Source of the DNA: Apostichopus japonicus
Lineage: Eukaryota; Echinodermata; Holothuroidea; Aspidochirotida; Stichopodidae
Assembly (NCBI RefSeq): GCF_037975245.1
Contig: NC_092562.1
Coordinates: 4,332,001 to 4,396,000, forward strand
DNA length: 64,000 bases
Reading direction: 5' to 3'
The notes below the pieces were generated by a model. The model did not search any database, was not told the origin of the DNA, and saw only the letters and a list, made by a program, of their open reading frames with translations. How positions within the stretch are numbered: the first letter of the stretch is position 1; each line of letters begins with the position of its first letter. This document shows, one piece after another, positions 16,183 through 63,106 of the stretch. A program made the translations under genes and the position numbers.

Positions 16183-16836
16183 TTACCGTAGTTTCTCATT
16201 CGATCTTAAGCCAAGTCTTAAGTTTTGGAATTAGAGGCCATCAGTAATTGCCCTCCAAAATTAACATTCTTAAATTTGTTTGAAGTTTTCAAGAGGACTC
16301 TCCTGAGGTATCAGCCCCTTCTTATTCCTAGAGTCTTCACTGTAGGGAATCTAGTATGTAAGAGAGGTGCAAACACTGTTACATGTGGCAGTAAACTTAT
16401 TTTAAGTTTTAACATGAGTGACCAATATTTGACTTCCTACTATATTTTGGGAACAATACTGACTAACTTTAAGATAGGTCCAAGTAGAAGAAATTGCTCT
16501 GACTGCTGGGCATAAATATGGAGTGAATTTTTAACGCAATTTTGTCCTTGTTTCAAGTATTTTCATAATATCGGCCTTGAAAGCAGTTATTACAATGTTT
16601 AGCCGCTACATGAGACATGCGGGGGAAGTAATTGCTATATAACTTCGGGTGGCTATCCATTTTACAGCCTTTTGCTTATTTTTTAACTGGCGAAGTCTGA
16701 TTAAACCTTTAATGAGATCAAGAACAGAAGTAAACCACAGAGCAAAATCAGAGAGATTTGTCCTCTTAAATATCGCAAATTTACCACATAGTGAACCATC
16801 CTACCATGTGTCCAACTAACCGACAACTTAAAGTGT

Positions 16837-17201
16837 ATGTGTAAAAGTTAGTTGGCCTGACGTTTCGATCCTAGCAGGATCTTCTTCAGAGGCTAAATAA
16901 CAAGTAACAGAAGTGACAAAAACACGCACAGAACACAGACAGGTTAATGAGCAGGGTGAACACAAAGAGATAGATGTAAGGATGATGAGGATAGACAAGG
17001 GATGGAGATAAGAAAGCAACATGCTCATTAATCAGTATGTGTTCTGTGCGTGTTTTTGTCCCTTATGTTACTGTTACTTGTCATTCAGCCTCTGAAGAAG
17101 ATCCTGCTAGGATCGAAACGTCAGGCCAACTTACTTTTACACATTCTCTTACACAGGCTCTCTAGTGGATAAGCAGTTTGCTAACAGTTTTATTTTACTT
17201 T
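16837..17201. mobile_element. 365-bp inverted-repeat element with hammerhead-like arms (Penelope-like, non-autonomous)
   Basis: Two arms of about 115 bp (about 16839-16954 and 17021-17144) are reverse complements separated by about 66 bp. Each arm carries CTGAAGA, a perfect six-bp hairpin (GATCCT-GCT-AGGATC), then GAAAC and GTC. These are the core elements of a hammerhead ribozyme and occur at 17092-17122 (plus) and 16859-16889 (minus). In the plus copy GCCT before the core can pair with AGGC after it, as stem I would. The insert is flanked by the 12-bp direct repeat AACTTAAAGTGT (16825-16836 and 17202-17213). Copy 2 has that 12-mer once, uninterrupted, at 30500-30511. Hammerheads of this kind are known from Penelope-like retroelements; the family call is inference. 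Confidence 0.75.
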
Positions 17202-17213
17202 AACTTAAAGTGT

Positions 17214-18814
17214 AAATGGAAACTTTCATTTAATTATTTTATTAAATATGAAAGGAACCAAACTTGCTTGTAATAAAAAAAAATAATAATAATCATAAAA
17301 ACGGGCAGCTTGTTTGTGATATCAAAAGTTTGGTCAAGAGGCAGCCAAACATATCTAACAGGTAATTTGCTAGAGCAGCTCTACGAGCCAAAACATCTGC
17401 GATTATTCTTCTCTTTGTTCTTAAGTTTAACATGTTCTTGGTGGTGTTAAACTGTAAAGTAATGAAAATAATACCAATATTTGGTGACAATTATACACTT
17501 TCATAAAATATACGTTTATAAACAAAATCCTCTAAACTTCCAAGCATTGTGATGTTACCATAGACTTACTGAAGTATGTAGACCTGTCCATGAACCATAC
17601 TTGAATATATAGGAAATAAAAAAAAATATTTCATTTCTATTTTTGGAAGTGTTTCAAAATTGATACTGGATGAATTCTGCTTCAAAGCAGTAACTTTCCA
17701 TTTAAAACCTCAAGATTTCTTAATCCAATTACAGTTGTGTAGTTGGTTTGAAAGTGCTATTAAGATACCACTCTATATAATACCATAAAAATAAGAGCAA
17801 TGTTGTCAATCTTTGAACAAGGTTGGTTCAATGTTATCAAATGTTCTTGCACGAGTAGAGACTGACATAACAAGTTTGAATTTCATCCAAGATAAACCTT
17901 ATGTTTTACTGAGTACAAGGTTTCCACAGTTTAACTGCTGTTGACTTCAAATGACCTTTGACCGACAAAAACAGCACAAAGGTTCTTGTACTCACTGAGC
18001 TGGATCCATATTCCAAATATGAGGTTAATATGATGTTCTTTGTCAACTATCAAGCTCAGGAGTAACCTACATGTACCCTCGCACAACACCACCATCCAAT
18101 GGAATTCCTTTGGTTTTCAAACGAATGTAAATGGAACCTACTGCATGTGATGGTCATGTTGTGTGTGGAGGGGTGGGGTATCTGGGGGAGGGGAAATTCA
18201 TCTAAGATTATTTATACGACTGAACAATATTTTAACCAGACAAAATGTGAAAACTGATATTCCTATAAAAAATATATGTACATACGTTTGGAGAATGCTT
18301 AATATTTCTGGAATAATATCCTTTGTAAATATTCTTGGTTGATATAAAACCAGTCGTCTGACAAAAATTAATTACCAACCAGGCCAATCAATGCAGAATT
18401 CTAGATCTCATCCAAACCTACCTAAGCTATAATACTTTCGTATATGAAAATCACCCCTACAATTCTTCTAGTAACATGTAACTGCAGATATCGAATCTTG
18501 TACACAAACTTAAATAAATTTTCAAAGACCATTTAATTAAGGCACTTTATCTCTCAAAGACGAAATTGACATCTTACAGTTTAATTTGAACAACTTGAAA
18601 TTAAGTAACTCATAATTCAATCAATACATACTCAAAATATCCAGTGATCCAAAACTTTTCTATTTTACAATTTATCTCAGATAACCATAGTTTAACAACA
18701 TCATCTTTAGAAAGAAGGATGATGGGTTGAGGAAAAACCCGAAAGAATTTTACTTCGGTGATATTATACAAAAATAACTTTGGTGTCAACTGGTAAAAAT
18801 AAGTAAATAATATT
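17214..18814. other. 3' flank of zinc-finger gene copy 1
   Basis: AT-rich non-coding sequence homologous to about 30512-33382. It contains one block of the TGACCT-type dispersed repeat (about 17935-18060). Open frames at 17293-17490 and 18610-18831 are not preserved as proteins between the copies. The 3' UTR of the minus-strand gene presumably occupies the right-hand part. Confidence 0.6.
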
Positions 18815-21800
18815 CTATGAAGGTTTGCCAATTTCGCTTGCGGAATGTGTGTTAGATTGATCTGGAATCACTGTAATGTTAAATACGTCGGCCATTTCTA
18901 CTTCATTAGACTCGCTTGGATGATTTGACTCCTCTTTCACAATTGCCTCTTCTCTGTTGTTTTCTTGGTCCAGCTGATTGGTTCTGATCTCCTCCATCTC
19001 CTCCTCCTCCTCTTCCTCCTCTTTAACTTGCACAATAGACACTGCAGCGCCCTCTCTTGGCTCCTGTTTCACTTGCAGTAACTCTCGTTCCTGTTTTGCA
19101 GCCTTTAGTCGTTCCTCGTGAGTTCTTTCGTGTTTGGCCCGATTCATAGTGTCAAAGAACAAGATGTCGCAGAATGAGCACTTGTACGGCTTCACGCCTA
19201 GGTGTCGTTTCTTCATGTGGTTCCGCAGGCAGGCTCTATCAACAAATGCCTTATTACACTCTGTGCACTTCCACGGTCTATCTCCAGTATGTATCATTTC
19301 GTGCCGCCGTTTTTCATAGGAAGTCCGGAAAGGTTTGCCGCAATAATCGCAGGGGTAGGGTCTTTTACTTCTCCAGTTGTCATCTGATAATGTACGAATA
19401 CTAAGGTCGTTGACCTTTGGTATCGATGGCCTCGGCTGTATGACCATGACTTGCGATTGGTTTGCACTAGCCGTACTGCTGGTAGGGCTAGGCTGACCGA
19501 GGCCATTGGCGTCATTGTAAAGAGCAACCCCACTGCACGAAGAAGAGTCCAATAACTTAGAGACAAATGGAGATGAATGAATGTTAAATTTTTCTCCCAA
19601 ATGAATGCTATCCGAGTTGTTCGAACTAGAGTTGGTGCTGGTGGTGGGTGTAGGGGCAGAGGCGACTGGACTTGTCAAGACAGGGGGACAGTTGTTCTTA
19701 CACTTACAACTGATGAGTAGACCCTCCTGTTGATTCTTACTCTCATCCCACCATGTCAACAAAAGTTCTGAGTGATGATCAAGAACTTGCCGCTTAAGAT
19801 GAATCTCTTCCTGTAAATGAGAAAAGAAAACAAGAAAAAAGTCAGAAAATTCAAAAAATTCAAAAAATAGTTCATATTTCATTAGTAGCTAATGGGTTGT
19901 TTTTATTTCTCTCTCTTTCACTTTCAGCAGGAAGGATCTTATTTTTGTCTTAAATCACCATTTGCTACCAATAATAAATCATTTAACTGGTTAAGCAAAG
20001 GAAATTTATAGAGACGAGGGCAAAACTGCTACATTATAAATGGAAAACCAATGTTTGCACCCAGAAAGTTACGATGAATTTGCATAGATAGGATGGCTCT
20101 ACAACATCTAGACACTACAATATATGTTCTCTCTGCGCCCATCTATAGTGATAAATATACTGAAGAATGATATATAAAAGACACCTCAACTGACCTACTG
20201 CAGGCTGTGTACTTGACAGCTTCTAACAGTTTTCAAATACTGTAAATCCATCTTACTGTATTAACTGGCCTAGTTTAACTTATATACTGTAATTTCATTT
20301 ACATATATATGCAAAAAAGATAGCAGGCATTGTTAATGTTGACAGTTTGAGCACTATTGCTCAATATCAACAATATAAGGGACAGCTGAACAAGAGACAT
20401 CTTTAATATTTGTCTTGTCTAAAAATAAGCCCTGATGAAATCTAAGACCATAACATAGGGAAAACAGTTTGCATAGTGTCTACTTTGGAGGTTGATGAAG
20501 TTTGTATCATGACAGAGTAAAATTCCAAAGTGTATGTCCACTAAAGAAGGAAAGTATTAATTTGTGCAGTAACATATTCAATATCTTGTACTGTAATGTA
20601 ATAATCTGATGTTGGCCATGCATTCATGAACTCCTGCTGCAAAGTAACACAGTTGCCATGTAGGCATATAATTCAATTCAGTGTGGACATTATTGGAAGT
20701 CTGTGACAAAAGACCACATAAAAGACAGCATGACGTGTTGAATTGACCTCTCACAGACAGTGGTGTCGCCAAATGATCGATGCCCCAAGAACCTGGTGAC
20801 CCCCAAAATGATATTTGTCTAAGGAAACATAAATAGTGGTGATTTGAAGCTGATATAACTTCTGCAAACAGTGAAAACCGCAATGCTTCTGAGGGTCTTT
20901 TACCCCTTGACCCCACCCTATGGCAGGCCCGGGATCCCACGGCTCTGCGCTTGAACCTCTGACACCAGCTTGCATTACCCACATTTTGTTGTTTCCTGTG
21001 CCCACCCCCTAACAAATGTCTAGTTTGGTCATATGATAAAATCAAATTATTTAGAAGCTCAGGAGATATTCACAGTTTGATTACTGCTCAGAAGGGTTTG
21101 GTTAAATGGTCAAAAATAAGTGACTAAGATGCAAGAAGTGGTGGGGGTGCTTCAATTTGGATATATAATTCATATCCACACCGTAACTGAACTTACCATT
21201 TCATTTGATGAGGAGTAAGTGTTGTTGACATTCAAAGTGTTGTGAAGAGGTTCCCTTCTCCGATGCTTCTGTGAGATAAGAAGAGAGAAATGTTAACAAC
21301 ATTGCTTCATTAAAATGAATCACTGAAGATCAGAAAGAGGTACATTTGCACATACTGTAATTGATAATGATAGGGTTTTGCAGACCAGCCTGATATACTG
21401 ACACAAGAACATGTTACCTACTGAATGTTAAAAATGTGCCACACTATGCTAGACTTGAACAAATGCTAGAAGCATTTTGTCTTTGAACTAAAGACTAGGG
21501 ATCCAAGGTCATGATGGACTAAAAATAACAAGGGGTAACACTAACTTGACCAGATATAGGGCTAAACTTGTCTCTCAGAATAATTATATGAACCTAGTCT
21601 GTACACAAATGTCTAGAATATTTGCAATACACCAGCATGGTGGTTTGGTAGCAGTTTAAATACTGAATAAACATAGGATACACCTTATAATTAAGACATG
21701 AAAAAATGAAAAATAAATAAATAAATAAAATGCTATTCCAAGGAGAAACAAACAGAGTGCATTACAGGGGACCTACTGTGAAGAGGCAACAATATGGTCT

Positions 21801-23890
21801 GGACTGTACGTGTCAACTGAAGAGTATAATATGCTGCCCTCATCCAAGCATTTTGTTTCTATGTCTGAGTCGGAGTGATGATAACTTACAGAATTTACAA
21901 ACTTATTTCCTCATATTATTCCAGTCCAAGGATAAAATGTCATGTACCATAACAGTACGGTGTGTTCCTTTTTCTTCTTCCTTTGACTAGCATCGGAATC
22001 ACAGTAGAGATGAAATATTTCTTTGTTTATGTGAGTATTGAGAATCAGGGCCAAATGTTTAATGGTCTTCCGGGAAGACCAAAACTTCTGTTTGGAAGAC
22101 CAAACTTAGCAAAGGAGGTTGTTTGATTGATGACTAGTTCTTTAAGTCAAATTCAGATTGCATTGGAACTTAATACCCTTAAATAGATTAAATGATAAAA
22201 TGGTTTCACCCTCGTTCACTTTGGAGATCATGAAATTTGACATAAAACAACTTTAACAGTACCACAGCTGTTCTATTCACCAAACTTGTAATGTACAAAT
22301 TCGTCAGTCATTGTTTTCTGGCCTCAATTTTTAGGATAACTAATTCTGCTGTTCAGACAACCAAAAGGTAAGAAAAACTCTCAAGAAAAATCCACTGACA
22401 ATTATTACTATTGTTTTGTGCTGGAGTTGGAGAAGCATTGGGAGTGACACTGATGAGTTGAAGGTGGATAGTTACATGTACAGTTTTACTTCATCAACAC
22501 CGTTGAGAAGGACACATATTTGAGAGTGGCACATAATTGCCGAACACTAACTCTTGTTGAACAGGATATGCTAGCTTGATTTGGTGTTGAATTTTTCTTA
22601 ATTTTTTCTGTTTTGGCTGGGGTCCGAGTCGCAGTGGAGAAGAATGATTTCTTTTATCCCTGTGAAGTGTTAGTTTTTTTAATTTTTATTTTATGTCACA
22701 TTTTTTAGAACAAATAACTAAAGTGCAGAATATTTACACCTTGTCAAGCAGGAGATTCTTCCTGTGTTTATTTCTGTACTTTTTGGCTGGAGTCTGTGTT
22801 GCAGTGGGGAAGAATTATTAGGAACATTTAGGTTGTATTACTGCATAATTATTTCTTAAAGGGTGTGAAGACTCGCGCACATAGAAATGTCTCATGCCGG
22901 TAATCTGACCTAGTTTTGAAGAGGTGTAACAGAAGTGTTAGACACTGCAATCGATCCCAGAAATTAAACACACAGCTTGCTACCGTCGGTAATTAGACAC
23001 TATAGTACAGTCAATATATACAGCTACGGTCAAAACCCACAACACAGTGTACATAGCAGTGATGAACATCTCAGGTCTAGATAAAAGACTGTCTGCATTT
23101 TGTAGCGACAAGAAAAAAACTTCACTCGCAAGCAACAGAGTTAACTTTTTCAGAGTGCGGCACGCGATTTGGGGTGATTCTTCAATGCCTTTAATACATG
23201 ATAGAATGCAGAACAATAACATCTTGCCAAACATGGTACTTTTTCTGGAGTCAAAGTCACAGTGTTTTATACTGTACACATTGCTGCCACAGTCATAGTG
23301 GAGAAGAATGATTTCTTGTTTACTGTTATTGGTAAAACTAAACAACATGATTGTGTCTCCACTCGAAAAATAGACCTTCTCAATAGTATGGTAATCTATA
23401 AACAACTTTATCAAGTCATTTTCTGCGGTGTTGAGAAGCAACCATTATCATAGCGATACCAAATTTCAATTTGAAAGATTTTGCCTGTTCTAGATTCCTT
23501 ACTACAGGATACTGTATGACTAGGCTAGCCTAAGTCCATATTTGCAGTAGGCTAGGGCCTAAGTTAGGCCTTTCTTATCCCTCATTGCCTGCTTAGGCCT
23601 AATCATATTTTGTCCCAACAGGGACTGTCTACATGGACAGGTTACAAGTGCACCTACCCTAGACGCTTTGGCTTACTAGTAATATATATATTGGCTGCAC
23701 TGCCTATGTGCCACACCATATTTATTTTCATATCGGTGCAAGCCTAACTTAGGCCTAGGGTACGTAATTGTTACTGTAGTGTACTGCAGTGTTAGTGTAA
23801 CTAAGTCTAAGCTACTAAAAAGTCCGATTTTCTTACTGATCTCTTGCGACGTCTACTAGCTTTTAACGACCTTTCACTAACACCCATCAT
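18815..23890 (-). CDS. C2H2 zinc-finger protein, tandem copy 1
   Basis: Coding exons on the minus strand are 23837-23890 (18 codons from ATG, donor GTAAGA), 21197-21268 (24 codons, acceptor CACAG, donor GTAAGT) and 18815-19810 (331 codons plus TAG, acceptor TTTACAG). All joins are phase 0 and give about 373 residues. The N terminus is strongly basic (ASRRRKRS then KHRRRE), probably a nuclear localisation signal. A hydrophobic/charged segment (LKRQVLDHHSELLLTWW) and a Ser/Thr/Asn-rich linker follow. Three C2H2 fingers lie at about residues 194-273: CDYC-X12-H-X3-H, CTEC-X12-H-X4-H and CSFC-X12-H-X3-H. An acidic tail has a poly-Glu run and three possible SUMO sites (VKQE, VKEE twice). An in-frame TAG lies just upstream of the ATG. 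It is likely a nuclear DNA-binding regulator; I cannot name the orthologue. Introns hold a MITE (22860-23190) and an AGGCCTA-rich stretch. Confidence 0.85.
22860..23190 (-). mobile_element. TTAA-flanked MITE, copy A (331 bp)
   Basis: The ends are AGGGTGTGAAGACTC and, inverted, AGGCATTGAAGAATC. TTAA lies immediately outside both ends (22856-22859 and 23191-23194). The body is the reverse complement of the element at 25997-26365. TTAA target duplication is the hallmark of piggyBac-type transposition, but no transposase is present. It sits in intron 1 of zinc-finger copy 1. The overlapping open frames here are not genes. Confidence 0.75.
23520..23790. repeat. AGGCCTA-rich low-complexity stretch
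   Basis: Frequent TAGGCCTAA, CTTAGGCCTA and GGCTAGCCTAAG phrases occur. The counterpart in copy 2 is at about 40270-40620. It is intronic, and no coding signal is seen. Such AGGCCTA-rich sequence is, in my experience, common in echinoderm DNA; this is a weak taxonomic hint only. Confidence 0.5.
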
Positions 23891-24263
23891 TTCAGAACAC
23901 TTGTTTTGCTACTGCACTGGCGAAGTTTTCTTACAACAGCCTAACTTAACACTCGGCAAGCAACCTAACGTGTGAAACAACAACCAACAACTGGATTATG
24001 ATGGACGAACTGTACTGCATTATCATACAGTGTTATTAGTGGAGACCGAGCTGGTAGTATAGCGCTTATATTTACAGCGTTATTTGCGTACACGTATAAC
24101 AAGCACGCAGAAAAAAAAAAAAAATGAGTTGCTCGCGTTTAAGCTCGCAAAAGCGTGTTGGGTTTGCAAGTCAATTATCAAGTTTTACAAGAATACTAGA
24201 TACATTAAGTTGATAAACAGCATAATACTAATAGATAACAAGGATCTATTTCTACTAACTTAC

Positions 24264-24480
24264 AAGTGCGGACGAATCCAGTAACGAAAGGAATACGTAG
24301 ACAACAAAAATGTTTGCGAACTTTCGTGGCGCTTTCGTTGATTAGAGCTTGCTGGAGGGAACTTGCTACGTATAGCACCAGTATAATGTATGTAAAATAC
24401 ATAGGACGTCACTGACACGTACGCGGCGCGGCGCCCAACTGACTTATGCTAACATAGTTTGTTATTTGCCGCGCCTATAA
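24264..24480 (-). promoter_or_regulatory. Putative 5' UTR exon and promoter of zinc-finger copy 1
   Basis: Read on the minus strand, a CpG-rich conserved block ends CCGCACTT then GTAAGTTAG, a good splice donor, so 24264 would be the 3' edge of a non-coding first exon. About 140 bp further upstream is GGACGTCA (24404-24411), one base from a CRE; copy 2 has the perfect TGACGTCA. CpG-dense sequence (CACGTACGCGGCG) adjoins it. The exon's 5' edge and the transcription start are not determinable by eye. Confidence 0.45.
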
Positions 24481-24561
24481 GTTAACGCTCTGTTGTGTGG
24501 GAAGTACGCCGTGTGCGTGATTATGGGTTTGTTGTCATGTATTTGTCTGTTATGTCATAGG

Positions 24562-25485
24562 AGATAGTGCAAGTGCACTATTTTTTATAACTTATCTAGC
24601 CAACTCTATGAAATCAGATGATAATGATATCGATGCAGTTATCCTGCCATCGCAGTTAGTTGATCATGATTACAGCACTACCACCACTAATTCTTTTTTC
24701 ACAGTAGACCAACAATACGCTGATGATATCTCTTGGGCATCAACTGGTCAGCATATACTGCAAGACATCGAAAAACGAGTCTCTGACAAACTGGCAGTAA
24801 GAAATCTGAAAATCAATTGCACAAAAACTGAGAAATTTACAATCACAAGAAAAGGAAATGACAGTTGGAAGAAATGTAAATATGTTGGAAGCTTGCTGGG
24901 GACCGAAGAAGACATTAACAGAAGAATTGGTATAACCAACGGTGCTTTCAACACACTGTCAAGCATTTTTAAAAGCAAAAACATAAGCCGGAAAATTAAG
25001 CTTAGGATCTTTGAGACTTTATTAAAGAGTATTTTTTTGTACAATTGCGAACTGTGGGGCACAACGAAGGATCTTGATCGCAAAATTGACACTTTTCAAA
25101 GGAGACTACTTCGAAATATCCTCAACATTAGATGGACCAATAATAATTGGTTATCAAATGATGAGCTCTACAACGAAACCAACCAAACACCTTGGTCATC
25201 GATAGTCGCACATAGAAGATTGAGATTTTTCGGTCATGTAGCAAGACTCCAAGAGGACGCTCCAGCAAAGGTTGCTTTAAGAGAAGCACTGAGACATACT
25301 GCTAAACCAGTTGGAAGGCCCGTGACTACATTGCTTGGAAAAATAAAATCGCAATTCAAGGACATTAATATTAACAATTTCGAAGAAGCAATAAACCTTG
25401 CGCAAGATCGTGATACGTGGCGGAGGTTAATCACTGAGCATGTCGGATAGACGAGACTCAACTTACTACTACTACTACTCATAGG
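24562..25485 (+). mobile_element. 5'-truncated non-LTR retrotransposon insertion
   Basis: The insert begins directly after CATAGG (24556-24561) and ends with a TAC-repeat tail followed by a second CATAGG (25480-25485), a six-bp target duplication. The uninterrupted site is seen in copy 2 at 41356-41361, with the same flanks on both sides (TATGTCATAGG then TAACTCC). The insertion therefore post-dates the split of the two copies. It contains the C-terminal half of a reverse transcriptase ORF (see the CDS at 24608-25450). Confidence 0.88.
24608..25450 (+). CDS. Reverse transcriptase C-terminal half of a LINE (truncated)
   Basis: The frame is open from the insertion boundary: codons from 24560 read GDSASALFFITYLAN, which fits the RT block with the (Q)GD...LF motif. 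The Met at 24608 is therefore probably internal, not a true start. The catalytic box YADDISWAS follows at about residues 37-45 of the frame. Then come the KTEKF and KYVGSLLG blocks of the thumb region, and a C-terminal FGHVARLQED...VGRPVTT segment typical of LINE ORF2 tails. Stop is TAG at 25448-25450. The frame is intact over about 280 codons, so the insertion is recent. The fingers domain and any endonuclease are missing, so it cannot be an autonomous copy. Expression as a gene is unlikely. Confidence 0.85.
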   Translation: MKSDDNDIDAVILPSQLVDHDYSTTTTNSFFTVDQQYADDISWASTGQHILQDIEKRVSDKLAVRNLKINCTKTEKFTITRKGNDSWKKCKYVGSLLGTEEDINRRIGITNGAFNTLSSIFKSKNISRKIKLRIFETLLKSIFLYNCELWGTTKDLDRKIDTFQRRLLRNILNIRWTNNNWLSNDELYNETNQTPWSSIVAHRRLRFFGHVARLQEDAPAKVALREALRHTAKPVGRPVTTLLGKIKSQFKDININNFEEAINLAQDRDTWRRLITEHVG

Positions 25486-25693
25486 ATAACTCCAAGTAAT
25501 TTTTCCACTACACAGGAGGGGATGACAATATACGGGTTTTGGAACTACAAAGTAATATCCCTTTACCCCTCCTCCATTAAATTGAATACGGGAAATGTTA
25601 TAGGCCTACAGACTGAGGAAAACTTAGACTTGGAAAGCACTGTGCCAGGACAAAGCGTTAACGTTATCGTTTTATGACCGATAGGCAGGGGCG

Positions 25694-25739
25694 CAATAAT
25701 AATAATAATAATAACAATAATAATAATAATAACAATAAC

Positions 25740-25790
<51 letters not shown>

Positions 25791-25792
25791 TA
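25694..25792. repeat. (AAT)n microsatellite
   Basis: Nearly pure AAT repeats with a few AAC units. Copy 2 has only GCGCAATTAGT here (about 41484), so the expansion, together with the following TTATATAGCG-containing segment to about 25900, is specific to copy 1. It may be the tail of a further retroelement insertion. Confidence 0.85.
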
Positions 25793-25996
25793 GTCTTATA
25801 TAGCGGAGACTCCAACAAAAGTTGTTCAATGTTGCGTAGGGGATATACAGTAAAGTTGCAGGACTAGATGTATTATACGGCTTCTTGAAATTGGTATAAT
25901 ATGTACAGCACTACAACCTATATATTTAGTTCATTCGTGTAGGGGAATTTGGGAGGGGAAGGTTTGAGAAATTTGCGTTAGCCACCGATCGGTTAA

Positions 25997-26365
25997 AGGC
26001 ATTGAAGACTCACCCCAAACCGCGTGCATGCGGCCATCTGAAATAGTTAACTTTCTCTTGCTTGCAAGTGACGTTTTGTTCGTGTCGCTACAACATGCAG
26101 ACAGTAATGAAAAGTGATACCTTTATTGTTATATCTTAAGCTGAACCTGAGATGTCCATCGCTGTATCGTTTGTAAACTGTGCTGTGGGTATTGACCGCA
26201 GCTGTATGTACTGACTGTACACTAGTGTCTAATTACCGACGGTAGCAATCTGTGTGTGGATTTTCTGGGATCGATGGTGGTGTTTAACACTTCTGTTACA
26301 CCTCATTCGAAACTAGGTCAAATGACCGGCATTAGACGTTCTTTTTGCGCGAGTCTTCACACCCT
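25997..26365 (+). mobile_element. TTAA-flanked MITE, copy B (369 bp)
   Basis: The left flank is TTAA (25993-25996) followed by AGGCATTGAAGACTC. The right end is GAGTCTTCACACCCT followed by TTGA (26366-26369), a mutated TTAA. Copy 2 has the empty site with a single TTAA at 41610-41613 between the same flanks (CCGATCGG and CTTCCGAATG). It is the same family as 22860-23190 in the opposite orientation. Confidence 0.82.
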
Positions 26366-26869
26366 TTGAAATTTGCTTCCGAATGTTCACTCTGGTCATA
26401 TTTGTAAACCCTCGTCATGCCAAATTCAAACAACGCAAAATGATTTGAAAGAAAGTTTCTCTAATCCGTACAACTGTTCGAATCAGTAATTTTGTATCAG
26501 TACATCTGAATCCATACATCTGAATCAATTCATCTCGAATAACCAGAAATATCAACAAACTAGCATCAAATTTCTCGGAAACAGTACTTCAGTCACTCAA
26601 TAACATTACATCAGTAAGATAGGAAAGGAAGAAAGGAAAAGAAACGGAAGAAAAATAAGTACATGAATTGTTGGCATCCGAAATACTTACGTCAAGAATC
26701 GTTCGGTACCGAGCATACCGTCTTAAGAATGAATCACATTTTAAATTATCCTTAACTGAATGTAGTCCAATCGTGTAGGGTATATGGTCGTGTACTTCAC
26801 GCGCGCTCTAGACGCTCCACGCGTCGCGCTCTAGACGCTGTCGCGCTGTAGACGCTCCACGAGCTACAT

Positions 26870-28880: not shown

Positions 28881-28919
28881 AAGTCCCATTGGCCTTCACT
28901 AGTTAGCGAGATTTGAATG

Positions 28920-29607: not shown

Positions 29608-29609
29608 GA

Positions 29610-31001
29610 GTTACCGTAATATCTCCTAAGATCCTTTAAGTCTTTAAGTTTTGGAATTAAAGGCCACCAGTATTACCCTCCAAAATTAACATTCTTAAAT
29701 TTGTTTGAAGTTTTCAAAAAGAATCTCCTGGAGTATCAGCCCCTTCTTATTCCTAGAAATAAAGAGTCTTCACTTAAGAGAATTTAGTGTGTAAGAGAGG
29801 AAAAAACACTGTTACATGTGGCAGTAAACTTCTTTAAGTTTTAACATGAGTGACCTTTATTTGATTTCCTAATATGTTTGAGGGCAACTTAGGTCCAAGT
29901 AGATAAAATTTCTCTGGCCGTCATGGGCATAAAGAACGGGTGCATTTTTTAACAGAAAAGGGTGGTATATGGTAACTCTAGACACTGTTGTTGCTGTGCA
30001 TGAAAGTGAAATTGTGACCACTTTTATGAACGCACAACCGCAACGAAAATGGCGAAAAGGAAACAACAATAGCGTCTTTTGAGGCACTTTCATGAATTAT
30101 TTTATACATTTACCGGAATTATGCAGTACACAGTTATGAATGCATGACGTTACGAATTATTAACCCTTTTTGCGAGCATTTTAATGATCTCGGCTTTGAA
30201 CGCAGTTATTTTACTATGTTTAGCAGCTACATGATGCATACGGGGGATACCGAGTGGTATATTTCTTTGGGTGGCTATCCATTTTAAAGCAGTAGCTCAT
30301 TTTTGACTTACAGTTATTCCACTTTGGTGAAGTCTATTTAAAGCTTTAATGAGATCACCAAACTGAAGGACATAAGTAAACCACAGAGAAAAATCAGATA
30401 GATTGTCTTTACCATTTTCCTTTAAAAAAAGCCTTTAATCTAAAATATCGCAAGGTTACCACATACTGTACCATCCTACTTTGCGTATAACTTACCGACA
30501 ACTTAAAGTGTAAATGGAAACTTTCATTTCATTATTTTATTAAATAAGAAAAAAAACCAAAGTTGCTCGTGACAAACAACTCCCCAAAATAAGAACAACA
30601 GGCAGCTTCTTTGTTGTTTGATATCGAAAGTTTGCTCAAAAAGCGGCCAAACATATCTAATAGGTAGTTTGTTATAGCGGCTCTACGAACCAAAACATTT
30701 GCGATGACTCTTCTCTTTGTTCTTAAGTTTAGCATTTTCTTGGTGGTGTAAAACTGTAAGTTAATGAAAATAATACCACCATTTGGTAACAATTATAATA
30801 TTCGATATAAGTTAATTAAAAAAAAATCCACGAAACTTCAAAGCATTGTGATGTCACCTATAGACTTACTGAAGTATGTCACCTGTCCATGAATAAACAG
30901 TCCTCGGGAAGTGTTCTAGAATTGATACTGGGTGAATTCTGTATGAAAGCAGTTACTTTGCATTAAAACCTGAAGATTTCTTAATCCAATAACAGTTGTC
31001 T
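29610..31001. other. Left part of duplication copy 2, non-coding
   Basis: Homologous to 16183-17740, with the hammerhead-bearing element absent (empty site 30500-30511). No gene is recognised. The minus-strand open frame at 30532-30792 overlaps the equivalent of 17293-17490, but many residues differ and the ends are not conserved. Confidence 0.6.
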
Positions 31002-32390
31002 AGCCGAACCAGAAAGCCAGTTGGCTTTGTGATTCCTTGTTAGAGCAAGTGAGTTAAACTTGTAAAAGAATTAAGTGACAACCAGAAAAGATCAGAGATT
31101 CCCACCTCTTATTTGTAGCACTCCCTTGCGGGTTTCAATCATTTCATTTCACTGGTATTAGGATTTTACAGTAAAGAATTGTTATTCCAAACTGTTTCAA
31201 TGTCCTGAAAGAAAAGTCTTCCTGTGTGAAGGTATAGATACATAGATGAATTAATAAACTCAGCTCTGCCACCTTGCAACCATCCCTTAATAATTATTAT
31301 TAATAAATGAGAGCTACACATGACATAGTTTATACACTGTGAAATATCTTCACAAGTAATTCAAAGCAATAGTCATCTAGTTTACATCATAGAGAAAATT
31401 TGAAATTTTGCGTCCAATTGAGATAACTGATAAGGGCCTACTAAGTGTCTTAAAGTGAGTGTGTTAAAGATTATCAACAGATTGAAGCAAATTTCATTTC
31501 CTGGATGACCGTATATTCTGTTGAAGACTTGTAAAGCCCGTTCTCAAAACTAAACTGAACTTGACCAAAGTACTGTATGTATAAAAAAAAAAGAAAATCA
31601 TTGCAATGGAGAATGCACAAATCAATTGTAGCTTTAATTTTCGAGTAATCATGTTTGAAAGCTTTCAAACTTTGGCACCTGTTGAGCTAATTTGACCTTT
31701 GACATCTACCAATATCAATAAGGCTCTTGCACTCCCAAAGCTGGATCTACACACTATGTATAAAGTTAAAAAAAAAGACGTACTTCTTGAGTTACCGTGT
31801 TTACATGATTTTAAAACTTTCACTTAAATGTTGACTGCAAATAACCTTTGACCTCCACCAATTTCCATTGGCTTCCTTTACTCACCAAACTGGATCTGCA
31901 TATCATGTACGAAGTTCAACACAGATGCACTTTTTGAGTTATCTTGTTTACAAAGTTTTCAGACTTTGACCTCTGTTGACCCCAAATGACCATTGAACTT
32001 CACAGAAACGAATAGGGATCTTGTACTCAATAAGACGGATCTACATACCAAGTATGAAGTTCATCCACCATGTTTTGACTTATGGTATTTACAAGCAAGT
32101 GTCACATATACACACACACACAGTCTGACACAGACACACACGCCATCACCTCGCATAGATTCCTTCTGCCTCTGGCATGGAATCAAAGAACGGTAACCAA
32201 GTTAGTACTGTAACAATCAAACTGGATAGATCTTGAAGAGGAAAAGGCTAATGGTGTGTCTTGGTTTGAACTAACTTCTGATCAAGGTTCAGTAGCAGTT
32301 AGAAAATTTGATAAAACATAGGCCCTTATTTTTTACCAAGTGATATGTATGTATATATAGATATATATGTATATATAGATATATATGAGA
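31002..32390. mobile_element. Copy-2-specific repeat-rich insertion (~1.4 kb)
   Basis: Copy 1 reads straight from the equivalent of 31001 (about 17735) to that of 32390 (about 17800) without this block. It begins near CCAGAAAGCCAGTTGGC, a phrase also found in a PLAA intron at about 59874. It contains three spaced TGACCT-type repeat blocks (about 31680-32090) and ends in CA and TATA microsatellites (about 32105-32145 and 32338-32390). No coding potential is recognised. Whether it is one element or several is unclear. Confidence 0.5.
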
Positions 32391-33382
32391 ACATTGCAAC
32401 GTTTTCAAATTTTGAACAATGTTGAAGAGACTGACATATCAAGTTTGAATTTTATCCATAAACCTTATGATTTACTGAGTACAAGGTTTCCACAGTTTTA
32501 CTTCTGTTGACTTCAAAGACCTTTGACTGCCACAAACAGCACAAAGGTTCTTGTACTCACTGAGCTGGATCCATATTCCAAATATGAGGTTAAACCACAA
32601 TGTTGTTTGTCAGTTATCAAGCTCAGGAGTAACATACATATACCCTCGCACAACACCACCATCCAACGGAATTCCTTTGGTTTTCAAATGAATGTAAAAT
32701 GAACCCACTGCATGTGATGGTAATGTTGTGTGGGGGAGGGCTGTGGGGTATCTGGGGGGCTTCATTTAAGATTAGTTATGACTGAACAAATATTTTAACC
32801 AGACAAAACTTCCACTTATATTTCTAAAAAAATATATGTACATACGTTTGGAGAATGCTTAATATTTCTGGGATAATATCCTTTGTAAATAATCTTGGTT
32901 GATAAAAAACCAGTCGTCTGAAAAATATTAATTACCATTGAGGCCAATCCATGCATAACTCTAGATCTCATCTAACACACCTAAACTAGATTACGCCCTT
33001 TTCTTTCATAAATAAAAAACACTCCTACAATTCTTCCAAAAACAGGTAACTGCAGATATTGAATCTTGTACACTAAACTTAAATAAATTCCAAAGTTTCA
33101 AAGACCATTTACTTAAGGCACTTTATCTCTCAAAGATGAAATTGACATCTTACATTTCAATTGAACAACTTGAAATTATTCAACTCATAATTCAATCAAT
33201 ACATATTCTAAATATCTGGTGATCCTAAACTTTTCTATTTTACAATTTACCTCATGTAACCATAGTTTAACGATAAGAAAGAAGAAATATGGGTTGAAGA
33301 AAAACCCCGAAAGAATTGTACTTCGGTGATATTATACAAAAATAACTTTGGTGTCAACTGATAAAAATAAGTAAACTATATT

Positions 33383-36300
33383 TTATGAAGGTTTTCCAAT
33401 TTCGCTTGAAGAATGTGTGTTAGATTGATCTGGAATCACTGTAATGTTAAATACATCGGCCATTTCTACTTCATTAGACTCGCTTGGATGATTTGACTCC
33501 TCTTTCACAATTGCCTCTTCTCTGTTGTTTTCTTGGTCCAGCTGATTGGTTCTGATCTCCTCCATCTCATCCTCCTCCTCCTCTTCCTCCTCTTTAACTT
33601 GCACAATAGACACTGCAGCGCCCTCTCTTGGCTCCTGTTTCACTTGCAGTAACTCTCGTTCCTGTTTTGCAGCCTTTAGTCGTTCCTCGTGAGTTCTTTC
33701 GTGTTTGGCCCGATTCATAGTGTCAAAGAACAAGATGTCGCAGAATGAGCACTTGTACGGCTTCACGCCTAGGTGTCGTTTCTTCATGTGGTTCCGCAGG
33801 CAGGCTCTATCAACAAATGCCTTATTACACTCTGTGCACTTCCACGGTCTATCCCCAGTGTGAATCATTTCGTGCCGCCGTTTTTCATAGGAAGTCCGGA
33901 AAGGTTTGCCGCAATAATCGCAGGGGTAAGGTCTTTTACTTCTCCAGTTTTCATCCGATAACGTACGAATACTTATGTCGTTGACCTTTGGTACTGATGG
34001 CTTCGGTTGGATGACAATGACTTGCGATTGGTTTGCACTAGCCGTACTGCTGGTAGGGCTAGGCTGACTGAGGCCATTGGCGTCATTGTAAAGAGCGACC
34101 CCACTGCACGAAGAAGAGTCCATTAACTTAGAGACAAATGGAGATGAACGTATGTTAAGTTTTTCCCTCCAGAGAATGCTATCCGAGTTGTTCGAACTAG
34201 AGTTGGTACTGGTGGTGGGTGTAGGGACAGAGGCGACTGGACTTGGCGAGACAGGGGGACAGTTGTTCTTACACTTACAACTGATGAGTAGACCCTCCTG
34301 CTGATTCTTACTATCATCCCACCATGTCAACAAAAGTTCTGAGTGATGATCAAGAACTTGCCGCTTAAGATGAATTTCTTCCTGTAAATGAGAAATGAAA
34401 AACAATATAAAAGTCAGAAAATTTAGTTCATACTTCATAAGTAGCTTATGGGTGTTTTTTTTTTCCACTCTCTCTTTCAGCAGGAAGGATCTTATTTTTG
34501 TCTTAAGTCACCATTTGCTACCAATAATAAATCATTTAACTGGTTAAGCATAGGAAATTACACAGAAGAGGGCGAAATTGCTGCATAAATGGAAAATGGA
34601 ATACCGATGTTTGCACCCAGAAAGTTACAATGAATTTGCATAGACAGGACAGCTCTACAACATCTAGACAATACAATATTTGTTCTCTCTGCGCCCATCT
34701 TTAGTCATAAATATACTGAAGAATAATATTAACAACACCTCAGTCGACCTACTGTACTTAAAAAATCCAAAGTGTATGTCCACAAAACAATTTTGAAACC
34801 TTTACAAACATTCCTTTGTGCAGCACATGTTACATTTTAAATTTCTTGTACAATGGTTCTAACTCCAGAACCTGGTGTGCCCCCACCCCCCCCCCCAAAT
34901 GAAATTTGTCAAGTCAAAAAAACAAAACTGATGATTTGAAGCTGATATATGTTCTGATAATGGTGAAAACCACAATGCTTCGGGCAGTGGGAGGCTTTTC
35001 CGCATGAACCCCCCTGGGCCCTATGGCGGGTCCCGGGACCCCATGACACCAGCTTGCATTATCCATATTTGGAACTTCCTCCCAAATTTTGCTCCCTCTT
35101 TGCACCCTCCCCCTCCCCCTTACAAATGTCTACCATCGCCACTGCTAACAGAAAGGGAGAGTAAGTGTGGTCATATGGTAAATCAAATTATTTACAAGCA
35201 CAGGAGACATTCACAACAGTGTCCATGAATTACATACCATAGAAGATGGTAGAGATTTCACTATCTAGAGTAACTTTGAAGTTCTGTAACAAAGGTCGGG
35301 ACATCTCCTAAGTGTAATAACATGGGGGTTTTTTTCTTATTATTTTGAAAGAGGTGTTTGTCATATGTAACCTTCAGATGAACCTTAACATAAGTCTCAA
35401 TTTTATCCATGGATGCTCTTTAGAAGATTAAGCACCTTTTTGTTGATTCTGGGGAAACATTAGCTGATATGCCAGACATTCTGGGTGATAAACTTTAATG
35501 AGGCAAACTCATTTGCTTCTCTTTAAGTACCATTGATTCATTAAAGAAAAATGACATTTTACTTTCATAAATTGTAATCTTGTAGTTTAAGTAATGCTCA
35601 GAAGTGTTTAGTAAAATGGTCAAAAATCAGTGACTAAAATGCAAGAAGGGGTGGGAGTGCTTCAATTTGTATATGGGCGATTCCATGGTAACTCGCATTA
35701 CACTTTTTGCTGTTTTTTTATAAACCAAGTGCTGTGGCTTGAATATGGGTTAGTGTAGCTCCTCAATTTTCTGTGGTGTTATAGCCAACATTCATAGCTA
35801 CAATATGAAATTATCAAGAATTATAATTCCGTTCGCCTTAATGTATGGTGCTCTTCCAAATATCGGTAACTCGCATTACGGAAAAAGGACACCTGAAAAA
35901 TTGGCACCGGTACAAAATGGCACCGTGCTCAAACAAAGAATGATTTCTTCAATTGCATACATGTACAAGATATCTACCCTACTGATGTTTATATATCAGC
36001 AGTAGAAAATATGAAACAACTTCAGATATGGTATGGAGGGGGGAAAAGTCTGGTAACTCGCATTACGGTAACTCGCATTACACCTTTTCCAGTCATCTAT
36101 TTTGCTCTTAATACATCAAATTCTTTGAAAGAGATATGCTCCAAAGCCATTTTTGAAACACTTGGAAACTCTTAGAAACTGTAAAACTCTTTCCAAAACT
36201 TTTAACAACAATTTGCAAAACATCCTGACAATTATATCAATAATAATCGAAGCTGATTGAATCAGAAAATCAACTGAAGAATTGTTGATTAACAAGATTG

Positions 36301-39300
36301 CAATGTACACTATTGAATAATCAATCCATATTTCCAATCAAGCTAATCCAAAATTGTTGACTAACAAGATTGCAATGTACACTCTTTTATTATCAATCCA
36401 AATTTCCAATCAAGCTAATCCATGCAAACTGGTAGCTCTCCTCTTCCATTTTAATGTCTCAAAACATCTACTGAAAGTTAAACAGGTTCACAGCTTATAG
36501 TGAATTACAAGAAAAGTTTCTTTGGCATGTTAATTAGTGATTGGTCCTTTGAAAATTTGTATTTAGGGTTCTTAGGAAAAGCATGAAACTAATAAAACAA
36601 TCCTTGTCCCTAATTCTATCAGTAAAATAACATTATCAACAATAACACAATAGATGTTTCATCATGTGGTATGAGGGCATGGTGGTAGGCCATTCTAAAT
36701 AACCTTGAATGGATGGTGTTTTGTATCAAATTAGAATTTTGATGCAAACTTGAATTGGCCACGACTATTAGCAATCAAAGCCGTTCCCAACTTCCTTATC
36801 ATCTGGCTTCGTCGATAGAAAGTTTTGTCATCCTTGACCCTGGGGTTTGGCCATTTCCAGTTATCGATCGTTCCCGTGAAATCCGGTGGCCTGCCTTATT
36901 TTGTGTAATTTGGGGATTTGAAATGCTTTGGAGTAAAGGTTGATTTTCACATTGTAGTGATAAGACACTCATATTGGGGAAAGGGGTTTGCACATCATGA
37001 TATTTGGGGAACACACATTTGACTTGGTAAACCACACCAATCAATTCCAACTGACCAAGCCTCCGCAATCCTGCCCCCCCCCCCAGCGGCCCCAATCCTC
37101 CCCTATGCAAACTCCCCGTCCGCCCCATCCCCTCTGCCCACCCCACTTATTCTGAGGTGCCCACACCCTTGGCAGCATCAGTTTTCATATCGTATAATTT
37201 CCATCAAGATGTTAGGCACATTATAATGGTCATGATTTACAATATTTGCCCATCCTTGAACAAACTAGATTACTCTGTGATAGGCTACAGACTAATATAG
37301 CCTAAGCTCTCACAATTTGTCCTAAATAGCAATTAATATCTCATGAAAATGCTAATGTTAAAATGGAGAAAGAATATGCTAAATTTACTCATTTCATGAT
37401 GTCACAGTTGAATGCAACTTGGAAGGTCCATGATTCCACAAAGGTCAGGTGATAAAATCATCAATGTCTGTTGAAACTGTCCTAAGGGTCACATGTGATG
37501 TAATGGAGGTTGCAGTGCATTCTGGGTAAAGGAAGTACCTACTGTGCACACCTTATATAAGTATATAGTGCGCTGTATTGTTTTGTTAATCAGTAGTACT
37601 GCAAGTAAGATTGGAATAATATATGGTAACTCGCATTACAGCGGTAACTCGCATTACTGGTAACTCGCATTACAGTTTTCAATGGCTCTTTACATCTATA
37701 TACTAAGTACATTTCTAATTCTTTCAACTATTTTTATACTCTTTACTTTGACTAGAAGCATAATATGAAATGGCAGGAAATTATTTGCTCCAGTGAAAAA
37801 AAAAAGTTAAAAACTTGGTCTCACGGTAACTCGCATTACGCTCTCAAATCAGCTCTGTGTCGTTACAGCCATATATGCCTACAAACCAAAAATGTTTGGG
37901 GGAATTGTGATTAATATTTTAATACATCACTTATGGCACTACCAATACATATATAACAAATTTATTTAGGGTGCTTTCAAATATGGAAATCTGAGACTTT
38001 GAAATATCAATACTATTTCCTAAAATATTCCCTCAAATATCAACATTAGTCATGTATTCGCATTTTTTGGTAGAAGAACATGGTATAGTTGTAAAAAAAA
38101 GTACATAACCTAGACCCTAAATGTGTTTATAGTATATTAGAAGCCAAAAATGGCTGCAGAAATGATTTTGAAAATTTGGGGTCATGTCCCTGTTTTCACG
38201 GAATCGCCCATATATATAATTCAAATCCACATCGTAACTGAACTTACCATTTCATTTGATGAGGAGTAAGTGTTGTTGACATTCAAAGTGTTGTGAAGAG
38301 GTTCCCTTCTCCGATGCTTCTGTGAGATAAGAAGAGAAAAAGGTTAACGACATTGTTTGATTAGAATGAAGCATTTGGAAGGTCAGAAGAAGGTGTATTT
38401 GCACTATAGATAATTATAGGGTTATGCAGACCAGCCTGACATACTGGCACAAGGACATGTTACCTTTATACTGAATGTTAAAATGTGCAACAGATGGTCT
38501 TGCCCACACGCTATGCTAGACTTGAACAAATGCTAAGCATTTTGTCTTTGAACTAAAGACATGGCAAGGGATCCAAGGTCATGATGGACTAAAAATAACC
38601 AGGGGTAACACTAACTTGACCATAGACATTAGATATAGGGCTATAATTGTCTCTCAGAATAAGGATACTATCCAAGTCTATACACAAATGTATATAATCT
38701 TTGCTATACAGCAGCATGGTGGTTTGGTTGTGCATTGAATACTGAATAAACATAGGATACACCTTACAATTTAGCCAATCTAGAAATGAAAAAAGATAAA
38801 TAAATAAAATGCTATTCCATGGAGAAACAAGCAGAGTGTATTACAGGGGACCTACTGTTATTAGGTAACAATATGGTCAGGACTGTACGTGTCAACTGAA
38901 GAGTATGTATATTATCCTGCCCTCTTTTCCAAGCCTTTTGTTTCTATGGAGTCGGTATGATGATAACTTACAGAATTTACAAACTTATTTCCTCATATTA
39001 TTCCAGTCCAAGGATACAATGTCATGTACCATATCAGTACGGTGTGTTCCTTTTTTTTCTTTGTTTGTATGATGGATGACTAGTTCTTTACATCAAATTC
39101 AGATTCTATGACACTAGTCTTAATACCCTCAAATAGATAAAATGATTTATTGGTATCAGCCTCCATCACTCTATACTGATATAAAACAAAAATAGTGGGA
39201 CTATGATCCAGCCGAAGGGGAGTTTTACTGTCTACTAGTGTTCTAATCATGTACATCTGTGTGGAGTGTGTTTGTTGCCACAAATTTTACGAAGACTCTT

Positions 39301-40688
39301 TCATCCCAGAAGGCTGTTTAACAGGCAATACAGACTTTGAAACCGTTTGCCAAAATAAAGGTACATGTACTACAAGCTACCTTAGTGATGAGGAACGACA
39401 TTCGTGGCCACACAAGAAACATTCCATTTGAATTGGATATGAAGTAAGCCTTAGTCTGGCAAGGCATACTGTATGCTTAACGTTACAGTCAGCCCACATT
39501 GTTACTGTTACTTTAGCGTTTAATAGGCCTAGCTTCAGTGTTCTTGTTTAGCGTAGCCTAGGCCTTCTTTTTAACAAAAATTGAGGAAAAGAGAATTCTT
39601 TTTTCTGTAACTAAGACCATCAGGTGCCTCTTTAATATTTTCACTACATTGGGCTTATAAAACATTGCAAGGCCTTCTTAAGTTCTAGCCCTAGCAACAA
39701 CTGCTGAATATTTTCCACGGGGAGTCTACCACATGGAAAATGACTTTGTAACGAGAGTTGTTCCTCTCTGACGTCATCAATATGGAATTTCAAGCATATT
39801 ACATAATCAATGGCGTCTTACTGTGTACTGTGGTGAGGGCTTAGGAGGTTATTTTCAAAGCGAGCCTATTCAGTCAAACAGGAAGCGGTTCACTTAAAAA
39901 ATGTATATTAGAGAGTTTTGAGGTTACTGAATAATATTAATTGTCTTTGATCCCTGCCTTTGTTATTCCTTTAAGGATGTATTACTGAATAAATGTTCTT
40001 AATACAACATACTGTATATACTCTGGCTGGAGTCAAAGTCACAGTGTTTTTTCCTGTACTTTCTTGCTGCCAGAATCAAAGTCATAGTGGAGAAGAATGA
40101 TTTCTTGTTTACTGTTATTGGTAAACTAAACAACTTGACTGTGGTTCCTACACGAAAAAGACACCGTCTCAACAGCATTGTAATCTATAACTTTATCATG
40201 TACTTTTCTGAGGTGTTTAGAAGCAACCATTTTCATGGCAATGCTTAATTTCAATTTGCGAGACATATACTAGGCCTAGATCACTTAATTCAGGTGACTC
40301 CACTTACTGTAGGCCTAAATACTACTAAGTAGTAGTAATACTAGCAAGTAGGCCTTAGTTCGGCTAGGCCTTGCATATCCCCAATTTCCTGCTTAGGCTT
40401 TATCATATTTTAGGCCATTAGGGTCAGTTTACAAGAACAGGTACAAGTGCACCTAGCCTAGGCAGTTTGGCAAAGCAATATATAGTGGCAGCACTGCCAA
40501 TATGCCACACCAAATGTATTTCAGATCGATACAGGCCTAACTTAGGTACCTAATAATAACTATTACTTGTTAAAAATGTTAGGCTAAGTCTAGGCTACTA
40601 GTACTAATACTAGTAAAAGGTTCGATTTTCTTACTGATCTTTTGCGACGTTGACTAGCTTTTAACGACCTTCCACTAACACCCATCAT
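33383..40688 (-). CDS. C2H2 zinc-finger protein, tandem copy 2
   Basis: Coding exons are 40635-40688 (18 codons), 38248-38319 (24 codons) and 33383-34381 (332 codons plus TAG), with the same splice signals and phases as copy 1. The product is about 374 residues. Exon 2 is identical base for base to copy 1. The three-finger block (about 80 residues) is identical in protein, with about four silent differences. The linker and acidic tail carry about 16 substitutions plus two one-residue indels (for example DDSKNQQ for DESKNQQ). The frame is intact, so it is presumably functional. Intron 2 contains a 2.5-kb DNA transposon (35675-38209). Its upstream region is conserved with copy 1. It could be a paralogue or the other allele; its role would be nuclear DNA binding as for copy 1. 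Confidence 0.85.
35675..38209. mobile_element. 2.5-kb non-autonomous DNA transposon with eight GGTAACTCGCATTAC motifs
   Basis: The terminal inverted repeats are GGGCGATTCCATG (35675-35687) and its complement ending CGGAATCGCCC (38199-38209), one mismatch in 13. The flanks are TATAT on the left and ATATATA on the right; copy 1 has an uninterrupted GGATATATAATTC at about 21157-21170. Eight direct copies of the 15-mer start at 35687, 35865, 36052, 36067, 37625, 37643, 37659 and 37825, all on the plus strand. No frame above about 75 codons is convincing, so no transposase is encoded. The superfamily is not assignable by eye. Confidence 0.85.
36281..36424. repeat. 72-bp tandem duplication inside the DNA transposon
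   Basis: Two adjacent units (36281-36352 and 36353-36424), each containing AACAAGATTGCAATGTACAC and TTTCCAATCAAGCTAATCC. They differ at a few positions. The duplication is internal to the 35675-38209 element. Confidence 0.85.
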
Positions 40689-41073
40689 CTCAGAACACTT
40701 TTTCAGCTACTTTACTGGGAAAGTTTTCTCACAACAACCTAACGTAGCTCTTACAACCGACCTAACGTGTGAAACAACAACCAGCAACTGAACTATGATG
40801 GACGCACTGCATATCATACATACAGTGTTATTAATTGAGACTGAGCTGGTACTTGGTGGTAATAGTGTGCTTTATTTACAGCGTTAGTTGCGTACACGTA
40901 TAACAAGCACGCACAAATAACACAACATAAGAGTTGCCCAGTCTTCCGCGTTTAAGCTCGCAAAAGCGTGTTGAGTTTGCGAGTCAATTATCAAGTTTTA
41001 CAAGTATTCTACAGATATGAAAAGTTGATAAATACTTCCTATAGATAACAAGGAACCATTTCTACTAACTTAC

Positions 41074-41290
41074 AAGTGCGGACGAATCCAGTAACGAAAG
41101 GAAGGCGTAGACAACAAAATTGTTTGCAAACTTTCGTGGCGCTGACCGTTTCGTTGAATAGATTACAGGTAACTTGCTATGCATAGACTGCAATGTATGT
41201 AAAAGACATATGACGTCACTGACACGTACGCGGCATGCCCAACGACTTCGCCAAGCTTGTTATTTGCCGCGCCTATAAATTAACGCTCTG
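41074..41290 (-). promoter_or_regulatory. Putative 5' UTR exon and promoter of zinc-finger copy 2
   Basis: The same donor (CCGCACTT then GTAAGTTAG) occurs at 41074. A perfect palindromic CRE, TGACGTCA, lies at 41211-41218, upstream on the gene's strand, next to CACGTACGCGG. The block from about 41074 to 41350 is conserved with copy 1 better than the flanking introns. CREB/ATF binding is inference from the motif. Confidence 0.45.
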
Positions 41291-42368
41291 TTGTGTGGGA
41301 AGAACGCCGTGCGCGTGATCATAGGGTTTGTTGTCATTTATTTTCTCTGTTATGTCATAGGGTAACTCCAAAGTAATTTTTCCACTGCACAGGAGGGCAT
41401 CACAAAGATAGGTGTAATTGGAACTACTAAGTAGGCAAATTACCCCTAACCCCTTCTCCATTTTATGACCGCTAGGCAGGTGCGCAATTAGTAAGTTTTG
41501 TAGGGGCTACACAGGCTACAACCTCTATAATGAGTTCATCCTGGTTCATCCGAGTATAGAGGAATTCGGGAGGGGAAGATTTGAGAAATTTGCGTTAGCC
41601 ACCGATCGGTTAAAGTTCTCTTCCGAATGTCCACTCTGGTCATACTAATGAAGAGCCGGAAATGGAGTAGGAAAAGAGATGGAAGGGGTGGAAATAGAAA
41701 CGACACCTTTGCTTTGACATAGTATTTCATTCCATGTACGATTTTCCTAATATTTCATATGATAAGTAAATTTGAAAGGTTAAGTTTAAGTTAAAACTCT
41801 TTTAAGTTTTAAATAGGGCAGTGAACGGAACATAGGAAGAAAACAGGGAGGTAGGACCCCCAGGCTGCCATGATGCTGTCAACTCTGTGGCAAAGTTCAT
41901 GCCACCGTACCAGCCATGGAATGGGCAATAGCTGAAATCGTGAATCTCTTTAACGAATGAGAGAGCTCGATGTATAATTTAACCAACCTTCCTTCCCCTC
42001 CAAATTCCCACAGTGTGTGACGGTTTCCTGTATAATGGCATATGAACGTATATATTCAGGTTTAAGTGAGCCATACATCGTAATGGGGAAGGACAAAGAA
42101 AGAGGATAATCGTAATGAATTTCCGATGGCACTGAACGTAAACTCCCCGTGTCATCCTTTATTCAATCTCACTGAAAGCAAATGCCTACGACGCGCCACT
42201 TAGCCTCTCGGTACTTTGAACCTAAAGATAAAGCATGCCCTCTATACACAATCCGAAACTGAGCGATGTAAAAAATATCGTGCGCCGATCGCCAACAACA
42301 AGCTGAAAATGCCACGTGAATCGGATTTGCTCTGCGAATGTTACTCCGAGCAATAATCCATTTCCATT

Positions 42369-42702
42369 GGGGAAGGAGAGAGGCGTGGGGGAGGGAGGGG
42401 TGAGGGAGGGGAGGAGTGAGGGAGGGGTAAAAGTGCGAGGGGTGAGGGAGGTAGGTAGGGAAGGGTGAGGGAGGGGTGAGGGAGGGATGAGGGAGGTATG
42501 AGGGAGGGTGTGGGAGGGAGGGGTGTGGGAGGTAGGGGTGTGGGAGGGGTGAGGGAGGGAGGAGTGAGGGAGGAAGGGGTGAAGGAGGGTTGTGGGAGGG
42601 AGGGGAATGGGAGGGAGGGAGGAGGGGATGAGGGAGGGTGAGGGAGGAAGGGGTGAGGGAGTGAAGGAGGGGTGAAGGAGGAAGGGAGGGGTTAGGGAGA
42701 GA
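42369..42702. repeat. Polypurine (GGGAGGG/GGTGA) minisatellite, ~330 bp
   Basis: The plus strand is almost wholly G and A with occasional T, in irregular units like GGGAGGGATGAGGGAGG. Four-G-run clusters are everywhere, so G-quadruplex or triplex structures are possible. The long minus-strand Pro/Ser frames over this stretch (42169-42756 and 42222-42743) are composition artefacts. It marks the right edge of the duplicated segment. Confidence 0.9.
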
Positions 42703-57198: not shown

Positions 57199-57247
<49 letters not shown>

Positions 57248-63050: not shown

Positions 63051-63106
63051 CTGAAGTAAGAAGATATGTTATGCCATGTTTATCTAGTCTAGATATCTTT
63101 AATCTT

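Follow-up and report, generated by a model that had tools for sequence, protein, structure and literature searches.

Does the sea cucumber Apostichopus japonicus carry two neighboring copies of a zinc-finger gene, or did the assembler place two alleles of a single gene side by side? A first-pass annotation of this locus left both readings standing. We analyzed the 64-kb stretch of DNA in question (hereafter, the window; G000:C2:4332001-4396000) and searched its parts against the genome assembly of 671,581,487 bp in 35 contigs. The sequence argues, with a probability of about 0.95, for a tandem duplication that is both genuine and old: a segment of approximately 13 kb, which contains one C2H2 zinc-finger gene together with its putative promoter, is repeated head to tail.

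Two collinear units and their edges

In a self-BLAST of the window, unit A (16170..29598; 13,429 bp) and unit B (29599..42383; 12,785 bp) are related by 12 collinear, same-strand blocks with E-values down to 0.0, in agreement with the earlier description of two segments matching in order and orientation. The boundaries originally proposed, 16183 and 42370 with a junction at about 29605-29610, were close; self-alignment moved the outer two to 16170 and 42383 and the junction to 29598/29599. The blocks cover 6,941 of the 13,429 bp of unit A and 7,062 of the 12,785 bp of unit B, that is, about half of each, with block overlaps making a few bases count double in these sums; the rest consists of insertions present in one copy or of sequence too diverged for matching. 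Eleven interruptions separate the blocks. One-copy or unmatched segments number 15 above 80 bp and 14 above 100 bp (with maxima of 3040 bp for A and 2537 bp for B), which bears out the estimate of at least seven large insertions. Three additional, weaker matches inside B were found for positions 17866-18051 of A. A B-only stretch (31004..32396) includes three diverged copies of a unit of about 120 bp, which also matches a conserved block at 17866-18029 in A.

Divergence between the two units is uneven. After realignment, the gap-free identities of the 12 blocks are 83.9, 81.6, 84.5, 92.4, 71.9, 87.9, 90.5, 80.4, 80.6, 83.0, 90.9, and 68.4%, which corresponds to differences of 7.6-12.1% for four of them, 15.5-19.6% for another six, and 28.1-31.6% for the remaining two. 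The block that contains the third coding exon differs by 7.6% overall, and the non-coding sequence around this exon differs by 10.4% (138 of 1326 sites). Heterogeneity among the seven of the 12 blocks that were compared is strong (chi-square of 166, 6 degrees of freedom); it is compatible with gene conversion or constraint near the gene, and the alignment quality of the poorer blocks contributes to it.

The A/B junction falls in a 19-bp purine run (29583..29601, forward strand), the counterpart of a run at 42369-42383; unit B is bordered on the right by a G-rich purine repeat (42369..42700, forward strand). The first-pass annotation had correctly noticed both the run and its counterpart at about 42370, and it suspected a repeat-mediated join. 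On such a reading, recombination between purine-rich repeats would have given rise to the duplication or produced a misassembly. The run at the junction and the longer repeat at the right edge speak for it; however, the left edge has no purine run. We compared the edges with 500 shuffled sequences over 60, 150, and 300 bp. The two unit starts agree with each other, as do the two unit ends, and no shuffle reached either score at any of these lengths. In contrast, 84, 423, and 329 of the 500 shuffles (at 60, 150, and 300 bp, respectively) scored at least as high as the outer left flank did against the left side of the junction. When the left flank was compared with the right unit end, the counts were 29, 329, and 121, where 29 of 500 is the nearest to a signal. 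Corresponding counts were 500, 422, and 496 for the right side of the junction against the outer right flank, and 231, 95, and 323 for the start of the left unit compared with that same flank. This three-edge comparison thus revealed no homologous repeat shared by the left edge, the junction, and the right edge. Because the unit ends agree with each other and the outer flanks mostly match no better than shuffled sequence, the purine run belongs solely to the right end of the unit, and the suspected recombination between purine repeats stands little chance of being correct. The most likely origin would be a right-hand break at the start of the G-rich purine tract, whose broken end may have been joined without homology to unrelated sequence on the left; we infer that end joining or replication slippage is preferable to homologous recombination here. 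Any small homologies at the edges would have been erased by now.

Two other features were noted in the surroundings. A satellite array of about 17.4 kb with a unit of about 320 bp occupies positions 1-14272 of the window and continues into the left flank (C2:4328850-4346272); its self-identity within the window is approximately 97-98%, and it ends 1.9 kb to the left of the duplication. A PLAA gene with PUL, PFU, and WD40 exons (53287-63079, minus strand) lies beside the duplication.

A pair of constrained zinc-finger genes

Each unit contains one intact predicted C2H2 zinc-finger gene on the minus strand, with three coding exons, GT-AG splice sites, and no internal stops; the first reading of the sequence had likewise described an intact gene in each segment. 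In copy A, coding exon 1 (23837..23890; 54 nt) carries the ATG and joins in frame; coding exon 2 (21197..21268; 72 nt), flanked by AG and GT sites and also in frame, has the same sequence in both copies; and coding exon 3 (18815..19810), an open frame behind an AG acceptor, encodes the C2H2 fingers, an acidic C-terminus, and the stop. The corresponding exons of copy B are located at 40635..40688, 38248..38319, and 33383..34381, respectively. A scan for frames combining an ATG with a splice donor identified the exon 1 frame as the only one conserved in both copies, and it superseded another candidate start at the end of coding exon 2.

Exon 3 of copy A matches the Pfam models zf-H2C2_2 (E-value of 5.6e-14) and zf-C2H2 (3.4e-09), and exon 3 of copy B matches zf-H2C2_2 (1.2e-14). 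Matches to these two models exceed their cut-offs, as in known C2H2 zinc-finger genes, and the product is probably a transcription factor. No named orthologue emerged from the libraries searched; the best matches among solved structures are generic C2H2 proteins. When the exon 3 protein was searched against the genome, two strong matches of 754 and 710 bits were obtained, whereas the other matches listed scored 78 bits or less (247 matches among the best 121 of 1772 candidates). C2H2 zinc-finger frames are densely clustered at G000:C17:1380949-1766392, where several matches near 1413571-1415079 and 1473380-1475056, about 60 kb apart, have pairwise equal scores, suggesting a recent segmental duplication. 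Elsewhere, five pieces of COX1 at G000:C29:14745-31219 suggest a mitochondrial copy that is either nuclear or misassembled. The COX1 gene on contig C35 was read under two genetic codes, tables 5 and 9; by our reading, table 9, with AAA as Asn and ATA as Ile, yields the residues expected where the protein is conserved, and it is the mitochondrial code of echinoderms and flatworms.

The predicted proteins, 373 residues from copy A and 374 from copy B, are identical at 354 of 373 aligned residues. Across the coding sequence, dN is 0.022 and dS is 0.098 (dN/dS of 0.23), with dS rising to 0.151 outside the identical run described below. Both gene copies are under purifying selection. Because the finger regions are identical, the two proteins would probably recognize the same sites on DNA. 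Copy A also has, in its C-terminal half, three psi-K-x-E motifs that resemble SUMO sites.

The duplication also includes a putative promoter, as had been proposed. A promoter-like stretch of copy A (24258..24479, minus strand) contains TATAGGCGCGGC, TGACGTC, and the donor ACTT/GTAAGT of a probable non-coding first exon, and the counterpart in copy B (41068..41277, minus strand) has the same motifs and donor. The N-terminal parts and the upstream regions diverge between the copies, which would leave room for them to differ in regulation.

Private insertions and the question of alleles

Several insertions are private to one copy. The first, found only in A (24562..25478, forward strand; 917 bp), is a young element identified by its genome matches, its ends, and an empty site in B near 41350. 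It is bounded by a target duplication, CATAGG or TCATAGG, and lies upstream of the TATAGGCGCGGC motif of copy A, at a distance of about 80 bp. Thirty-nine of the 42 other genome matches listed (among the best 40 of 3682 candidates) exceed 700 bp at 92-100% identity. Two other genome copies of this element that were examined carry identical sequence over the 15 bases further to the left, and the copy at this locus therefore appears 5'-truncated, as LINE copies are. With this truncation, an ACT tail, a DUF6451 domain, and a match to RVT_1 below its cut-off in Pfam, the element looks LINE-like.

The second insertion, found only in B (35675..38209; 2,535 bp), resembles a DNA transposon, with 10-bp inverted ends (GGGCGATTCC/GGAATCGCCC) and the target duplication ATAT. 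Its relatives are numerous: 22 of the 45 other genome matches listed span the query at 93-95% identity, and by eye, eight of 10 relatives examined are likewise flanked by an exact duplication of 4 bp. Several copies of GGTAACTCGCATTAC are scattered along its length.

Another A-only insertion (16846..17201) has inverted ends that can fold back and is a dispersed repeat, its right part matching 38 other places in the genome at 91-95% identity. These ends bear some resemblance to a hammerhead-like core. Nothing in the 64-kb window scored as high as the gathering threshold of an Rfam family, and the candidate was dropped after a permissive Rfam search of positions 16800-17250 returned seven sub-threshold matches, none of them a hammerhead. 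The largest A-only stretch (25999-29038; 3,040 bp) has minus-strand frames at 27257-27696 that resemble pieces of a BEL/Pao retroelement protein and have no Pfam match. A Pfam search of 10 small frames from the flanks and insertions assigned a family to only one of them, of WD40 kinds.

These observations bear on whether the two units might be haplotypes of one gene set in tandem by the assembler. On the one hand, this has precedent. Marine invertebrates are heterozygous. In an earlier zebra finch assembly, ZBTB11 was falsely duplicated beside its own gene (Ko et al. 2022, PMC9516828), which, in the part of that report available, resembles the present case in that neighboring copies of one gene appear in an assembly. 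Neutral diversity reaches 8-20% in a few animals, according to the available text of PMC8270832, and polymorphism is very high in some A. japonicus genes, the number of coding SNPs per kb ranging across genes from 0 to 222 (Li et al. 2018, PMC6018497, in the portion at hand). The exon 3 block, moreover, differs by just 7.6% overall and by 10.4% in its non-coding part. Given a figure of 222 coding SNPs per kb, A and B could in principle be rare, extreme alleles.

On the other hand, heterozygosity published for this species is 1.59% by k-mers and 0.73% by mapping, the latter called an underestimate (accessible text of PMC5638244), or 0.986% (PMC5437941, likewise in part); the available part of PMC9128100 gives no heterozygosity figure. 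Divergence between A and B is approximately 5-20 times these values. For the flanking PLAA gene, the single gene tested in this way, one exon was searched and has one match in the genome. The B-only transposon also appears older than an average allele: aligned with 10 relatives and assuming a common rate, its own branch is 1.4% long by private sites and between 1.75% (lowest) and 2.7% (mean) by triples, compared with 0.5-0.8% per lineage for average alleles, which is half of the heterozygosity. Finally, the window and four flanking stretches of 10 kb each (104 kb in total) are free of N bases, whereas the available part of Ko et al. (PMC9516828) characterizes false duplications by gaps and half depth. 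The A. japonicus assembly of Sun et al. 2023, as given in the accessible text of PMC10344927, is 671.6 Mb in size (671,643,915 bp in 34 scaffolds, with 23 chromosomes of 18.21-46.02 Mb) and was built with hifiasm from HiFi reads with a mean length of 14.7 kb.

Because of the divergence, the single-copy flanking exon, the absence of N, and the age of the B-only transposon, the proposal of an uncollapsed haplotype does not hold up: that A and B are alleles placed in tandem is extremely improbable, and an artefact of any kind behind the tandem pair is very unlikely. The same divergence, PLAA exon, and private transposon strongly support the alternative that the first-pass annotation had offered, a genuine older tandem duplication. 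The two units lie side by side, collinear and identically oriented, and have diverged beyond allelic variation. In their head-to-tail arrangement, intact genes, dN/dS well below 1, and private insertions, they resemble known tandem (segmental) gene duplications evolving under purifying selection, and we found nothing that departs from that system.

An identical tract and its meaning

Within the A-B alignment of exon 3, a tract of 395 bp (18888..19282) that spans the fingers and the acidic tail is free of substitutions, with one 3-bp length change in a Glu repeat. Its sequence suggests gene conversion: limited recent conversion may have re-copied this segment from one gene to the other. The competing explanation is that selection on the sequence itself, or chance, kept the tract identical, and we regard this as a somewhat doubtful possibility. 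The fingers are strongly constrained at the protein level, and the tract was put to the test only after it had been spotted; in a weighted permutation test in which silent differences were shuffled, a run of this length was reached in 145 of 5000 permutations over the whole block, a modest result. Against it, only 13 of 5000 permutations reached such a run when the exon alone was considered, and the tract has no changes at about 77 synonymous sites, where approximately 11.8 would be expected from the rest of the exon. The acidic tail is of low complexity and is not an obvious target of synonymous constraint. A literature search on tandem duplication, gene conversion, and sea cucumber retrieved nothing on this gene, as judged from titles and the beginnings of abstracts.

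The duplication itself is ordinary and old, and the general phenomenon is already well known. What the analysis does is to largely settle the suspicion of an assembly error in favor of a true duplication. It also provides a clean case in which the gene for a probable transcription factor was duplicated, and the binding domain stays identical while the control regions diverge. More tentatively, conversion may repeatedly re-copy the half of the gene that encodes the DNA-binding fingers and the acidic tail. If the conversion reading is true, both copies of this regulator would keep the same targets while their N-terminal regions and promoters diverge.
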